DNA of 64,000 bases, taken from Planctomycetota bacterium. GTDB taxonomy: Bacteria > Planctomycetota > Phycisphaerae > Phycisphaerales > UBA1924. The notes under the pieces are model-generated. The model had not been told where the DNA came from. It was given only the letters and a program-made list of their open reading frames with translations, and did not search any database. Numbering within the stretch: position 1 is the stretch's first letter; every line of letters starts with the position of its first letter. Shown piece after piece: positions 38,766-45,901 of the stretch. The stretch is taken from positions 1,302,001 to 1,366,000 of the forward strand of contig JBCBSM010000001.1 in the NCBI GenBank assembly GCA_039819165.1. The letters run 5' to 3'. The translations under genes and the position numbers were made by a program.

Positions 38766-38835
38766 GCCGGCGGATGATCGCACGGCCGTGGCGCGGGGGC
38801 GAGCGCACGCTCGACATTTTTGTTGGCGGCGGCAG

Positions 38836-38841
38836 TAGAGT
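38836..38841 (+). promoter_or_regulatory. -10-like box TAGAGT for cyclodeaminase gene
   Basis: TAGAGT followed by 5 nt and ATG at 38847; no ribosome binding site. Divergent from the epimerase gene with 81 bp between the starts. Confidence 0.5.
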
Positions 38842-38846
38842 TGGGC

Positions 38847-39467
38847 ATGCCGGACGACACGCCCATCGCGACGCGGACCATCGAGGGATTCCTGGGGTCG
38901 CTGGCGCACAGGTCCCCCGCGCCGGGTGGTGGCGCGACCGCCGCGGTCGCGGGCGCCCTCGCGGCGGCGCAGGCGTCGATGGTCGTCGCGTACTCGCGCG
39001 GCAAGAAGTCGCTCGCCGATCACGCCGCGGCGCACGCCGAGATCGAGGCGATCCTCGAACGCGCCCGCGCGGACCTGATGGACCTCGCCGACGCGGACGC
39101 CATCGCCTACGCCGAGATGAACCGACTCCAGCGGCTGCCCGACGGAGACCCCGAGCGCAACCGGCTGCCCGAGGCCGCCCGCGCGTGCGTGGACGTGCCG
39201 GTGCGAGTGCAGGAGGCGTGCGCCGCGATGCTGGACGCCGGCGGGCGGCTCGCCCCGATCGCGAACCGATGGTTGCTGAGCGATCTGGCCATCGCCGCGA
39301 TGCTGGCCGAGGCGACCGTCCGCTGCTCGGACCGCAACATCCGCGTCAATGCGGGCGACCTGGGCGACGCGGGACCCGCGGCCGTCGATCAGAGCGGCCG
39401 CCGATGCGACGACGCCGCCCGCGCCATGCGGAGCATCCTGAGCGCCATCGACGAGGCCACCGGCTGA
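38847..39467 (+). CDS. cyclodeaminase/cyclohydrolase (FTCD_C family)
   Basis: 206 residues, all-helical FTCD C-terminal/FchA fold. The opening IEGFLGSLAHRSPAPGGGATAAVAGALAAA contains the hallmark SPAPGGG. The helix LMDLADADAIAYAEMNRLQRLP follows, and the end VRCSDRNIRVNAGDLGD is typical. Such proteins act as methenyl-THF cyclohydrolase or formimino-THF cyclodeaminase in one-carbon metabolism. The start at 38847 follows the TAGAGT box. Confidence 0.88.
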   Translation: MPDDTPIATRTIEGFLGSLAHRSPAPGGGATAAVAGALAAAQASMVVAYSRGKKSLADHAAAHAEIEAILERARADLMDLADADAIAYAEMNRLQRLPDGDPERNRLPEAARACVDVPVRVQEACAAMLDAGGRLAPIANRWLLSDLAIAAMLAEATVRCSDRNIRVNAGDLGDAGPAAVDQSGRRCDDAARAMRSILSAIDEATG

Positions 39468-39587: not shown

Positions 39588-40817
39588 ATGCCGCCTTCGA
39601 TTTCTCGGACCGCCCTCGCTGGCGGCTGCTTCTTTGCCGTTGCACCGATCGCGCTCGCACAGGCCCTCATGCACGAGCCGGGACCGCGGCCCGACGACGG
39701 CCCGATCACCTTCCAGGGCCAGACCTACGACTCGTGGGCCGAGGTCGCCTTCTCGGGCTATTTCAACCACGACCATACCCGCTGCGGCTTCGTGGACGAG
39801 CGCGACGAGCTCGGCATGGCCGGCGTGGGCGGCGGCTCCTTCGACAGCCGCAACGACTGCACGCTCTCCAGCACTACGCCGCGGCCGCGATACGAGCCAT
39901 CCGAGGGCCTGTACCGCGTCCCCGTCGTGGTGCACATCATCCGCCGCAGCGATGGCCGTGGCGACATGTCCGATGCACGCGTGCGTTCGCAGATCGACAT
40001 CCTCAACGAGGACTTCCGGGCGATCCCCGGATCGCTGGGGGGTGACGGCGCCGACGTGGGCATCGAGTTCTACCTCGCGACCGAGGACCCCGACGGCATG
40101 CCCACAACCGGCATCACCCGCACGACCAACAACACGTGGTTCCGCGACCAGGGCGACTACTGGACGCCCCTGCACTGGGACACCAACCGCTACCTCAACA
40201 TCTACACCAACGAGGCCAGCGGCGCCCTCGGCTACGTGCCCGGGCTTCCACAGGGCGGCATCGTCGGCCGCACCAACGATCGCGTGGTCGTGCTCTACTC
40301 CAGCTTCGGCCGCGATGCCCCGCTCTTCCCATTCGACCAGGGCCGCACCGCGACGCACGAGGTTGGCCACTGGCTGGGCCTGTACCACACGTTTAGCGGC
40401 GGCTGCGGCTCGGCGACGTCCTGCAACACCACGGGCGATCTGATCTGCGATACCAACGGCCAGAACAGCCCGACCTTCGGCTGCCCGTCCGCGAGCTCGA
40501 GCTGCGGGCTGCCCGCGCCCTTTGACAACTACATGGACTACAGCGACGACCGCTGCATGGAGCGTTTCACGCCCGAACAGGCCAACCGCATGCGGTGCAC
40601 GCTGGAGAACTGGCGGCCCGACGCGTACGCCCCGGCCAGCGCCGGATGCTCGCCCGCCGATCTCGCCGAACCCTTCGGCACCCTGGATTTCGTGGACTTC
40701 CTGGAGTTCCAGAATCTGTTCGCCGTGGGTGATCCCGCCGCCGACATCACCGGCGACGGCGTGCTGAACATCTTCGACTTCCTCGAGTTCCAGAACATCT
40801 TCACGGCCGGCTGCTAG
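39588..40817 (+). CDS. secreted M43-type zinc metalloprotease with dockerin repeats
   Basis: 409 residues; AGGGGAGGA precedes the ATG at 39588. A signal peptide (about 1-25) and a propeptide-like region are followed by a metzincin catalytic domain of the M43 (pappalysin-like) type. The zinc site HEVGHWLGLYH has His257, Glu258, His261 and His267, and the Met-turn is DNYMDYSDDRCM. Several Cys pairs suggest disulfides. The C-terminus has two dockerin-like units (VDFLEFQNLFAVGD and IFDFLEFQNIFTAGC), the same sorting module as the protein at 23269. An extracellular protease. Confidence 0.9.
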   Translation: MPPSISRTALAGGCFFAVAPIALAQALMHEPGPRPDDGPITFQGQTYDSWAEVAFSGYFNHDHTRCGFVDERDELGMAGVGGGSFDSRNDCTLSSTTPRPRYEPSEGLYRVPVVVHIIRRSDGRGDMSDARVRSQIDILNEDFRAIPGSLGGDGADVGIEFYLATEDPDGMPTTGITRTTNNTWFRDQGDYWTPLHWDTNRYLNIYTNEASGALGYVPGLPQGGIVGRTNDRVVVLYSSFGRDAPLFPFDQGRTATHEVGHWLGLYHTFSGGCGSATSCNTTGDLICDTNGQNSPTFGCPSASSSCGLPAPFDNYMDYSDDRCMERFTPEQANRMRCTLENWRPDAYAPASAGCSPADLAEPFGTLDFVDFLEFQNLFAVGDPAADITGDGVLNIFDFLEFQNIFTAGC

Positions 40818-43575: not shown

Positions 43576-44931
43576 ATGCGGGGCGTCCTCACCGATCCCA
43601 AAGCCAGGCTTGCCGTCGTCCGCGAGATCCTCGAAGGGGTCAGCAAGGCCGAGAAGCCCAACGAGATCCAGTTCGCCTTCCGCAAGATGTGGAAGCTGCG
43701 ACCGGTAGATCTGTACGTGTCGGCGTCGCAGCGGGGGCTGCGCACGGGCGAGTACAAGATCACCCGAAAGATCGTCGCCGACGAAGCCATCCGAGACGAG
43801 ACCGTGTACGAGCGGCAAAACCCCTGGCGGGACTGGGACACGCTGCCCGTGCAAACCGAGGGGGTGCTCGCGCCGCTCATCGCCAGCGCCGAGCCCCAGA
43901 TCGTCGATCTTTCGAACCAGGACCTGAGCAACGATCCGGCGCTGGGCGACCTCGCGTGCGGCATGCAGGCGGTGATGGCGACGCCGATCTTCGATCGGGG
44001 CCGGCCGCTCAACTGGGCCTTCCAGTTCAGCCGAGAGGCCGACCGCTTCGATGAGATGGCCCTCGAGCTGCACATGATGATCGCCAACCTCGCGGGCACC
44101 GCGACGCGGAACCTCGTGGCGGTGCATAAGGCCGAGGAGATGACCCGGCAGGTGCGGACGCAGTTCGAGGAGGTCGCCCGCGTGCAGCAGTCGCTGCTGC
44201 CCAAGAGGCTGCCACAGATCCCCGGGCTGTCGATCGCCACCAGCTACCTGACCAGCGACGCCGCGGGGGGCGACTACTACGACTTCTTTCCCTTCGAGGA
44301 CGGCCGCTGGGGCATCCTGATTGCCGACGTCGCCGGGCACGGCGCCGCGGCCGCGACGGTCATGGCCATGCTGCACGCCATCCTGCACGCCTACGAGGGC
44401 AGCGGCATGCACCCCCACCTCGTGCTCGAACACGCCAACACGCGGCTCGTGGCGGCCGGGCTCGAGGGCGCCTTCACCACCGCCTTCCTGGCGATCTTCG
44501 ATCCCGCGACGGGCGAGCTGCAATTCAGCCGCGCCGGGCACAACCCCCCGCGGTGGAAGCGGGGCGCGACGGGCGACGTCGAGCCCATCGACGAGGCCGC
44601 CACGCTGCCGCTGGGCGTCTTCGAGCCGCTGGGCGCCACCTCGGCGTCCATCCGCCTCGAGCCGGGCGACACCGTGGTGCTCTATACCGACGGCATCACC
44701 GAGGCCTTCGACGTCAGCCGCGAGATGTTCGGCGTCAAGCGGCTGGACACCGCGTTGACGGGGTGTTCGGGCCAGCCCGGCTGCGTCGTCGATTCGGTGC
44801 ACGGCGCCCTCTTCGAGCACACCAAGCGGCGCACCCGCGACGACGACCAGACGCTGGTCGCCATCCACTTCACCGGCATAGAGAACCCGCGGATGCCCAC
44901 GATCAACTCGGTCGCCGGCGTCCTGGCGTGA
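43576..44931 (+). CDS. GAF-like sensor with SpoIIE/PP2C phosphatase domain
   Basis: 451 residues. An N-terminal GAF-like sensor (about 20-190) and a linker helix (about 190-215: TRQVRTQFEEVARVQQSLLPKRLP, the usual RsbU/SpoIIE connector) lead to a PP2C-type serine phosphatase (about 220-440). Metal-binding motifs: GGDYYDFF (about 231-238), DVAGHG (about 250), and the late DDDQT (about 421). Such proteins control partner-switching or general stress by dephosphorylating STAS proteins. The TGA stop overlaps the GTG start of the next gene. Confidence 0.9.
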   Translation: MRGVLTDPKARLAVVREILEGVSKAEKPNEIQFAFRKMWKLRPVDLYVSASQRGLRTGEYKITRKIVADEAIRDETVYERQNPWRDWDTLPVQTEGVLAPLIASAEPQIVDLSNQDLSNDPALGDLACGMQAVMATPIFDRGRPLNWAFQFSREADRFDEMALELHMMIANLAGTATRNLVAVHKAEEMTRQVRTQFEEVARVQQSLLPKRLPQIPGLSIATSYLTSDAAGGDYYDFFPFEDGRWGILIADVAGHGAAAATVMAMLHAILHAYEGSGMHPHLVLEHANTRLVAAGLEGAFTTAFLAIFDPATGELQFSRAGHNPPRWKRGATGDVEPIDEAATLPLGVFEPLGATSASIRLEPGDTVVLYTDGITEAFDVSREMFGVKRLDTALTGCSGQPGCVVDSVHGALFEHTKRRTRDDDQTLVAIHFTGIENPRMPTINSVAGVLA

Positions 44932-45419
44932 GCCGCCCGGGGCAAGACTGGTTCGACCGCGCGCCCTTCGGGCCCAGCGTGGAGGGCGGCCGCCGACGCA
45001 CCGAGGCCGGCTTGCGATTCTCGTGCACCATGTGCGGCAACTGCTGCACGGGCGCGCCGGGCGTGGTCGATCTGGACGAGGACGAAGCCGACGCCCTGGC
45101 CGACCACCTGGGCATGGACCGCAGCCGCTTCGATGCCGGCTACACCAAATTTGTTGACGGCCGTCGCTCGCTCACCGAGCGACTCACCGCGTTCGGTTAC
45201 GACTGCGTCTTCCTCGACCGCACGACGATCCCGGGCAGGGCGGTGTGCGGCGTGTACGACCACCGACCCAGCCAGTGCCGCACCTGGCCGTTCTGGAAGT
45301 CCAACCTCGCCAGTGAGCGGAGTTGGGCGACCGCCGCATCCGGCTGCCCGGGCATGAACCGCGGGACCTTCGTGCCCGCCGACCGCGTCCGCATCATCCG
45401 CGACTCGAGCCCCGCGTGA
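44928..45419 (+). CDS. YkgJ-family Cys-cluster protein (first)
   Basis: 163 residues, GTG 44928 overlapping the phosphatase TGA (GTGA). The CxxCxxCC cluster CTMCGNCC (Cys33, 36, 39, 40) opens a YkgJ-type metal or Fe-S site; later Cys residues in the YDCVFLD, AVCGVYDHRPSQCRTWPFW and SGCPG segments complete it. The function of the family is unknown; zinc or iron-cluster binding is presumed. It is translationally coupled to both neighbours, so the three proteins are likely made in fixed ratio and may work together. Confidence 0.82.
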   Translation: MSRPGQDWFDRAPFGPSVEGGRRRTEAGLRFSCTMCGNCCTGAPGVVDLDEDEADALADHLGMDRSRFDAGYTKFVDGRRSLTERLTAFGYDCVFLDRTTIPGRAVCGVYDHRPSQCRTWPFWKSNLASERSWATAASGCPGMNRGTFVPADRVRIIRDSSPA

Positions 45420-45901
45420 CCCATGCGGAGCTGGCCGGGACCTGGCTCGAGGCGGCCGGCAGGCCGGCCATCGCCGACCGCCTGGAGGGCATCTACCGGC
45501 TCGTGGCCGACCAGATCGAGGCCCGCGGGCCGGCGTGCTGGGCGTCGGGGCGATGCTGCAACTTCGAGCAGGCCGGACACCGCCTGTACGTGACCGGCCT
45601 CGAGGCCGCCTACTGCCTCGCACGGCTCGACGGCGTGCCGCCGGACTCCCCTGCAATCGACCGGGCCCGGCTCGCGGGCGGCTGCCCGTTCCAGCGGTCC
45701 AACCTGTGCGGCGTGCACGCGATCAAGCCGCTCGGCTGCCGGACGTACTTCTGCGATCGATCGGCCCAGGACTGGCAGCACGACGTCACCGAGCGTGCCC
45801 ACTCCCTCGTCGCCGGCGTCCACGAGGACTTTGGCGTCCCCTACCGGTACATGGAGTGGCGGGCGATGCTCGAGCTGTTCGCTACCGCGGATGCTCGATG
45901 A
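45416..45901 (+). CDS. YkgJ-like Cys-cluster protein (second)
   Basis: 161 residues, GTG 45416 overlapping the preceding TGA in the same GTGA manner. It carries a shorter cluster: ASGRCCNFEQ, then GGCPFQRSNLCGVHAIKPLGCRTYFCD. The spacing resembles the first YkgJ protein (CCxF... Cxx...RPxxCRxxxF) but the two are diverged. The 3' end overlaps the convergent dtd gene by 20 bp. It may act as partner of the first Cys-cluster protein; inferred from gene order only. Confidence 0.78.
   Translation: MTHAELAGTWLEAAGRPAIADRLEGIYRLVADQIEARGPACWASGRCCNFEQAGHRLYVTGLEAAYCLARLDGVPPDSPAIDRARLAGGCPFQRSNLCGVHAIKPLGCRTYFCDRSAQDWQHDVTERAHSLVAGVHEDFGVPYRYMEWRAMLELFATADAR

Follow-up and report, generated by a model that had tools for sequence, protein, structure and literature searches.

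Our principal finding is that a pair of small cysteine-cluster proteins, here termed P2 and P3, is encoded next to Ser/Thr kinases or PP2C phosphatases in several lineages of Planctomycetota. The association recurs in eleven families, including that of the window itself (f1; this and the other f-numbers, such as f49 and f51, are family labels of this analysis), the window being the whole stretch of 64,000 nucleotides that was analyzed. We consider it quite probable (about 0.85) that the Cys-cluster pair is functionally tied to Ser/Thr phospho-signaling, and leave open the direction in which the connection runs.

In the window, three genes follow one another on the forward strand: P1 (43576..44931; 451 aa), coding for a GAF-like region followed by a SpoIIE/PP2C (PPM) Ser/Thr phosphatase; P2 (44928..45419; 163 aa), coding for a YkgJ/CxxCxxCC-family protein; and P3 (45416..45901; 161 aa), coding for a diverged version of the same, with both P2 and P3 starting at a GTG. 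An earlier note on this DNA had described the three genes as joined by two GTGA overlaps, and these are indeed present, the stop of one open reading frame sharing a GTGA with the start of the next at both junctions (44928..44931 and 45416..45419, forward strand). That note had also spoken of a translational fusion, wording that we replace: the window genes overlap yet stay separate reading frames, and true P2::P3 fusions are seen only elsewhere in the phylum. P1–P3 are preceded by a DUF2867/NmrA gene and a glyoxalase-like one, and followed by a convergent D-aminoacyl-tRNA deacylase; these, together with an amine oxidase, are the four flanking genes that were scanned against Pfam. At about 4.1 kb upstream of P1, with other genes between, lies a further open reading frame for an FTCD_C-type cyclodeaminase/cyclohydrolase (38820..39467, forward strand), recognized by its homology to a cluster of neighbors from related genomes, one member of which matches PF04961 at 5.6e-35 (Pfam). 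A defense system was considered and rejected, with 0 PADLOC matches for P1–P3; two of the partner kinases discussed below, when scanned, match many PADLOC kinase models, as Hanks kinases may.

P1 is an intact phosphatase, matching the PF07228 SpoIIE model in Pfam at 1.1e-45 (156 bits). Residues D233, D236, D251, D372, D423 and D424 are invariant in an alignment of 43 operon homologues, and from knowledge of the family we take D233, D251, D372, D423 and D424 to be the PPM metal ligands. The N-terminus scores 17.2 bits as a GAF domain, under the Pfam cut-off of 22.4; among 30 P1 N-termini that were aligned, 12 hit GAF_2 at E ≤ 0.01, the best at 1.1e-5. Pfam scans of P1 and of the aligned N-termini gave no PAS match, and a sequence search of the PDB found no convincing relative of this region.

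P2 is a clear member of PF03692 (43.8 bits against a Pfam cut-off of 23) and has 8 invariant cysteines, including a CX2CX2CC motif, across 107 aligned sequences. P3 of the window falls below the cut-off of the same model (17.7 versus 23 bits), lacks the CxxCxxCC spacing and instead has C41-x5-C47-C48, with 7 cysteines invariant across 58 aligned sequences. Judged by sequence comparison, it can be recognized as a distant PF03692 relative: 31 of the 41 sequences in a P3 alignment, the window copy included, match that model at E ≤ 0.01. The earlier note had suggested a metal or Fe-S protein, and the conserved sets of eight (P2) and seven (P3) cysteines fit such a site; from the Cys pattern and the analogy with FliB, a flagellin lysine methyltransferase, P2–P3 probably have a metal or Fe-S site. 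Certain positions are always Ser or Thr across the aligned sequences, namely S44 and T60 of P3 and T34, T41 and S81 of P2. The AlphaFold2 models of both proteins are confident (mean pLDDT 86.7 for P2 and 92.1 for P3). Foldseek found no PDB match to them at E ≤ 0.001, VIA-align gave a Z of at most 2.6, hence no clear solved relative, and sequence search of the PDB no convincing match for either protein, a missing structure match that carries no information on fold novelty.

Within the window's own family, P2 is matched in 108 and P3 in 74 of 120 genomes; P1, counting paralogues, is likewise matched in 108 (E ≤ 1e-40). The tight coupling of P1 to P2 proposed in the earlier note is conserved there: using the best P1 match per genome and leaving out weaker paralogues, the two are adjacent with a gap under 400 bp in 54 of the 120 genomes, spread over 33 genera (as labeled in this analysis), and two more genomes have gaps of 442 and 556 bp. 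Under a wider gap limit P1 is upstream of P2 in 57 loci; 32 of these could have an NTGA overlap, as could 19 of 49 P2/P3 pairs. In a profile search, which takes genes on either side of P2/P3 and whose SpoIIE profile was built from the f1 P1 copies and four f51 phosphatases (these match by construction), a SpoIIE gene stands beside P2/P3 in 54 of the 108 f1 P2 loci, compared to just 5 other SpoIIE hits in the 1.19 Mb of the same loci. Thus, the adjacency, which the earlier note had allowed might be a chance order without conservation, is conserved in half of these loci. In a tree of P1 the operon copies cluster together, with 5 label changes against a mean of 21.0 in shuffles (0 of 500 as low); one row of that tree, L110 with its extremely long branch, is doubtful. 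Together, the f1 counts, the clustering in the tree and the SpoIIE background lead us to reject adjacency by chance alone. Judging from the sequences, P1 and P2 were probably joined once in the ancestor of f1 with few later losses, and hence the 54 f1 loci are not independent of each other.

The three genes taken as a constant unit fare differently. P2 and P3 are adjacent in 48 of the 120 f1 genomes, all three genes are together in only 17, and in 28 P1–P2 is kept in the genome without any P3 match, implying that P3 is dispensable in those 28. We therefore reject a three-gene operon as one unit: of the set envisaged by the earlier note, the P1–P2 coupling stands, the constant three-gene unit does not, and the constant part is the pair of Cys proteins.

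This pair extends well beyond f1. In a sample of 198 genomes from the class, P2 is found in 184 (E ≤ 1e-5) and P3 in 155 (E ≤ 1e-10), and the P1 profile is matched in 139 (E ≤ 1e-50), a figure that includes matches to the SpoIIE domain only. Of the 19 class loci read outside f1, 11 have P3 next to P2 and 0 have a kinase or SpoIIE gene adjoining the pair. Among the neighbors of P2 compared in the class outside f1, none was shared by more than 3 loci. P1 was rejected as a member of the ancient unit, P2 being absent beside P1-like genes in 14 of the 14 class loci of other families that were read. In the phylum sample P2 is present in 126 and P3 in 78 of 159 genomes. In all these genome counts, misses may be assembly breaks. 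Outside the class, 61 genomes have both P2 and P3, which are adjacent in 27 (14 of them in one frame) and apart in 34. Reading 20 places chosen for their P2–P3 adjacency (L410–L429, 19 outside the class and L428 within it), we found a single open reading frame holding both domains in 12. Two further sets were read, L430–L434, chosen since P3 lies there in long frames, and L435–L449, taken from genomes in which P2 and P3 are separated. None of the three sets was drawn at random. P2–P3 is the older unit, present across class and phylum, and the fusion of the two genes as P2::P3 provides strong evidence for the two proteins working as one.

It is outside the class that the connection to signaling reappears in other forms. 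A Hanks-type Ser/Thr kinase is encoded directly upstream of P3 or P2::P3 in 15 of 30 outside-class P3 loci: in 11 of the 19 tandem or fused P2–P3 loci, on the same strand, and in 4 of the 11 loci with P3 only or a separate P3. In terms of families, a kinase adjoins P3 or P2–P3 in 9 of 19 (f40, f43, f51, f54, f64, f80, f82, f84 and f88). A SpoIIE gene is adjacent in 6 of the 30 loci (two families, f49 and f51), so that one or the other enzyme is present in 17 (10 of 19 families) and neither in 13, including L419, whose stretch begins within the gene and so could show no upstream kinase. Outside-class P2 loci apart from P3 have an adjacent kinase or SpoIIE gene in 0 of 9 cases. All these profile counts depend on thresholds of 50 bits for kinases and 40 or 30 bits for SpoIIE, and could overlook diverged copies elsewhere. 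The stretches in question hold few further kinase hits (4 in 192 kb, 1 in 89 kb and 1 in 75 kb). In 23 genomes searched, those of the adjacent-kinase loci among them, each genome has 11 to 75 kinase matches.

All 8 of the adjacent kinases scanned with Pfam match PF00069 at 1.9e-43 or better, and the remaining 7 of the 15 score at least 356 bits with a profile built from those 8, which themselves match it by construction. The catalytic residues, K104, H196-R197-D198 (HRD) and D216 (the Asp of DFG), are invariant in all 15. All have an N-terminal region of some 70 residues in common, and 13 of them, as judged by eye, an Arg-rich C-terminal end. These sequence features suggest that the 15 form one subfamily. 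In every case the kinase stop is no more than 77 nt from the core of the next P2 or P3 domain, and an NTGA overlap is possible in 6.

The order kinase, P2::P3, phosphatase is found in 4 of 4 fetched f51 loci, and by coordinates a SpoIIE gene also lies beside the pair in a fifth f51 genome (G357). In f49 a response-regulator-like SpoIIE gene precedes P2–P3 (L411) or P3 alone (L449), 2 of 2 loci, its product having a receiver match below the Pfam cut-off. The seven f49 and f51 genomes carry only 2 to 5 SpoIIE matches each. An apparent triple fusion in L412 was rejected, as the P2::P3 frame there merely reaches back over the kinase, which is in another frame; no Pfam match was obtained for the reading frame preceding P2–P3 in L429 or for the long frames that surround P3 in L430, L431 and L447. 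Hence, the combination of a phosphatase with the Cys pair, as the earlier note had it, holds in f1, f49 and f51, in other lineages a kinase takes its place, and both enzymes adjoin the pair only in f51. As the gene orders differ between families, more than one origin of the association is suggested.

The constancy of the pair, beside which antagonistic enzymes alternate, leads us to favor, at somewhat less than even odds, a model in which the P2–P3 pair, or a protein bound to it, is the phospho-controlled target of the adjacent enzyme. Briefly, P2–P3 would act as a single functional unit with a probable metal or Fe-S site, which several lineages of Planctomycetota might have brought under reversible Ser/Thr phosphorylation. 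The product of the adjacent gene would determine whether the pair, or a protein that the pair binds, is phosphorylated, with the opposing enzyme usually encoded elsewhere; in the window, P1 would keep P2/P3 dephosphorylated according to the signal sensed by its GAF-like domain. Within this model, metal binding, the contact between the proteins and the role of the pair as target are inferred. The Ser/Thr positions kept in all aligned P2 and P3 sequences would suit such a target. Several observations count against the model: the conserved Ser/Thr positions of P2 and P3 could be structural; neither enzyme is adjacent in 13 of the 30 outside-class P3 loci, nor in any of the 19 class loci outside f1 or the 9 separate P2 loci; 34 of the 61 outside-class genomes with both have them at separate places; and P1–P2 occurs without P3 in 28 of the 120 f1 genomes.

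The pattern could also be read in the direction of the earlier note, with the Cys pair as a sensor, the state of whose metal or Fe-S center (redox, iron or oxygen) controls the adjacent phosphatase or kinase, making it a bipartite input module with exchangeable outputs. We regard this as a tentative second choice; the reverse direction, with the pair as phosphorylation target, fits the pattern at least as well. For a sensor speaks that one partner serves several outputs (a phosphatase, a kinase or the two together), for which RsbQ and the PAS domain of RsbP are a good precedent (PMC3183031), and that the related CX4CX3CC motif of FliB binds one oxygen-sensitive [4Fe-4S] cluster (PMC8598068). 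Yet, exchanging a phosphatase for a kinase would invert the output, P1 already has a GAF-like input domain of its own, and P2–P3 is widespread without an adjacent signaling enzyme, as in the class loci outside f1, which points to a function of its own. We regard as less likely than not a more ambitious version, in which a tandem YkgJ-type Fe-S or metal module is in physical contact with a Hanks kinase and/or a PP2C phosphatase and, across Planctomycetota, makes protein phosphorylation depend on the metal or redox state of the cell, each lineage retaining one of these enzymes or the two together in the operon; this would amount to a new class of Ser/Thr signaling complex.

A further reading is that P2 and P3 are metal or Fe-S enzymes or chaperones, acting for instance in a FliB-like modification or in metal supply to the metal-dependent PP2C phosphatase, and that the signaling genes are co-transcribed with them for timing only. 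The width of the YkgJ family (hits to PF03692 in 9 of the 14 bacterial and archaeal genomes used as controls) is in line with this, as is the FTCD_C-type gene that 53 of the 108 f1 loci have ahead of P2 in the stretch read, a frequent neighbor indicating that the operon also holds metabolic genes; nevertheless, we think it improbable, as co-expression poorly explains kinases in nine of 19 families along with SpoIIE genes in f49, f51 and f1, and metal supply to a PP2C enzyme cannot account for lineages with a kinase only. Far less probable still is chance gene order or the vertical inheritance of a neutral neighborhood. The probable single origin of the P1–P2 junction, with its 54 non-independent loci, would be compatible with it, but the junction was kept across the 33 genera at 39–72% identity of the P1 copies beside P2 to that of the window, most of the other neighbors varying between genomes (by eye). 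Moreover, the association recurs in other classes with a different gene order, and a kinase in 9 of 19 families has a binomial p of about 4e-11 at an assumed background of 2%.

The repeated neighborhood in Planctomycetota suggests that Ser/Thr signaling is linked to a metal center in a way not yet described. Planctomycetota carry many Ser/Thr kinases, the inputs and targets of which are mostly unknown, and we know of no assigned function for the YkgJ/CxxCxxCC proteins, widespread as they are. A Cys-cluster pair beside one type of kinase and a phosphatase offers a small, testable entry to both YkgJ function and the inputs and targets of planctomycete kinases, with a set of three or four proteins that are probably soluble and can be co-produced.

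Comparison with known systems helps to place this combination. With P2 as a clear member and P3 as a diverged relative, the pair belongs with the YkgJ/CxxCxxCC family (PF03692), and, among the papers searched, it differs from the described members in being tandem or fused and in its link to kinases and phosphatases. PknG of mycobacteria is a Ser/Thr kinase with a Cys metal site in a rubredoxin-like domain; it resembles the present systems in tying a Ser/Thr kinase to such a site, and is unlike P2–P3 in that the site is a domain of the kinase itself, one not known to be related to YkgJ. The STAS antagonist and anti-sigma kinase of a SpoIIAA/AB-type partner switch are absent among the four flanking genes scanned. 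A closer parallel is RsbQ–RsbP of Bacillus subtilis, where a small partner is encoded by a gene adjacent to that of a PPM phosphatase whose N-terminus carries a sensory domain, and the module pairs with other outputs, its PAS domain being fused to a PPM phosphatase, a histidine kinase or a diguanylate cyclase (PMC3183031). There the components are an alpha/beta hydrolase and a PAS domain, whereas here they are Cys-cluster partners and a GAF-like domain, with a Hanks Ser/Thr kinase as the alternative output; with no hydrolase match in P2 or P3 (Pfam) and no PAS match in P1, we rejected membership in that module. The Cys motif of FliB has been likened to PF03692, with eight conserved cysteines and one [4Fe-4S] cluster (PMC8598068); its CX4CX3CC spacing differs from CX2CX2CC in P2 and CX5CC in P3, and we saw no methylation context. 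Finally, f51 is like the PP2C/PASTA-kinase operons typified by PstP–PknA/PknB, in which kinase and phosphatase genes share an operon (PMC12088040). In f51, unlike in those operons, a Cys-cluster protein lies in between and the phosphatase is SpoIIE-type; the kinases carry the N-terminal region (about 70 residues) and, in most cases, the Arg-rich tail described above. The earlier note knew of no described system of such composition; consistent with this, we found none among the matches listed from the open-access literature (title and start of abstract), nor a description there of YkgJ proteins with Ser/Thr kinases or phosphatases. Thus, within the literature searched, what we describe is apparently new: a phospho-signaling operon of a known kind with a new, Cys-cluster partner.

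Within the family to which the window belongs, an FTCD_C-type cyclodeaminase/cyclohydrolase is a common upstream member of the phosphatase–YkgJ operon, being present in 53 of 108 loci. In the window, a gene for a metalloprotease and another of the DUF2867/NmrA type lie between its representative (38820-39467, + strand) and the operon. The metalloprotease-like protein (39588-40817, + strand), as read by eye, has a signal-like N-terminus and, at its C-terminus, two dockerin-like repeats.

Outside the class, visual inspection of the aligned Hanks-type Ser/Thr kinases encoded directly upstream of the YkgJ-type proteins P2/P3 revealed an Arg-rich tail, with runs such as RRRRR, immediately before the stop codon in 13 of the 15 sequences (e.g., L410:5847-6989, L420:3764-4972 and L436:4381-5499, each prefixed by its locus). 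In family f37 (loci L418, L424 and L427), a kinase gene also lies near the P2–P3 pair but in divergent orientation and about 1.7-1.9 kb away; it falls in the same cluster as the P2/P3-adjacent kinases. Separately, a kinase match in one genome (G417, contig C203, 5887-6642) sits inside an open frame whose reported length, 23908 aa, reflects either a stretch of Ns or a giant gene.

In class families other than that of the window, the P2–P3 tandem recurs in 11 of 19 loci (L352-L371), and a search of these loci for neighbors common to more than three of them recovered none. Hence, the core function of P2–P3 in these families does not need an adjacent signaling gene.
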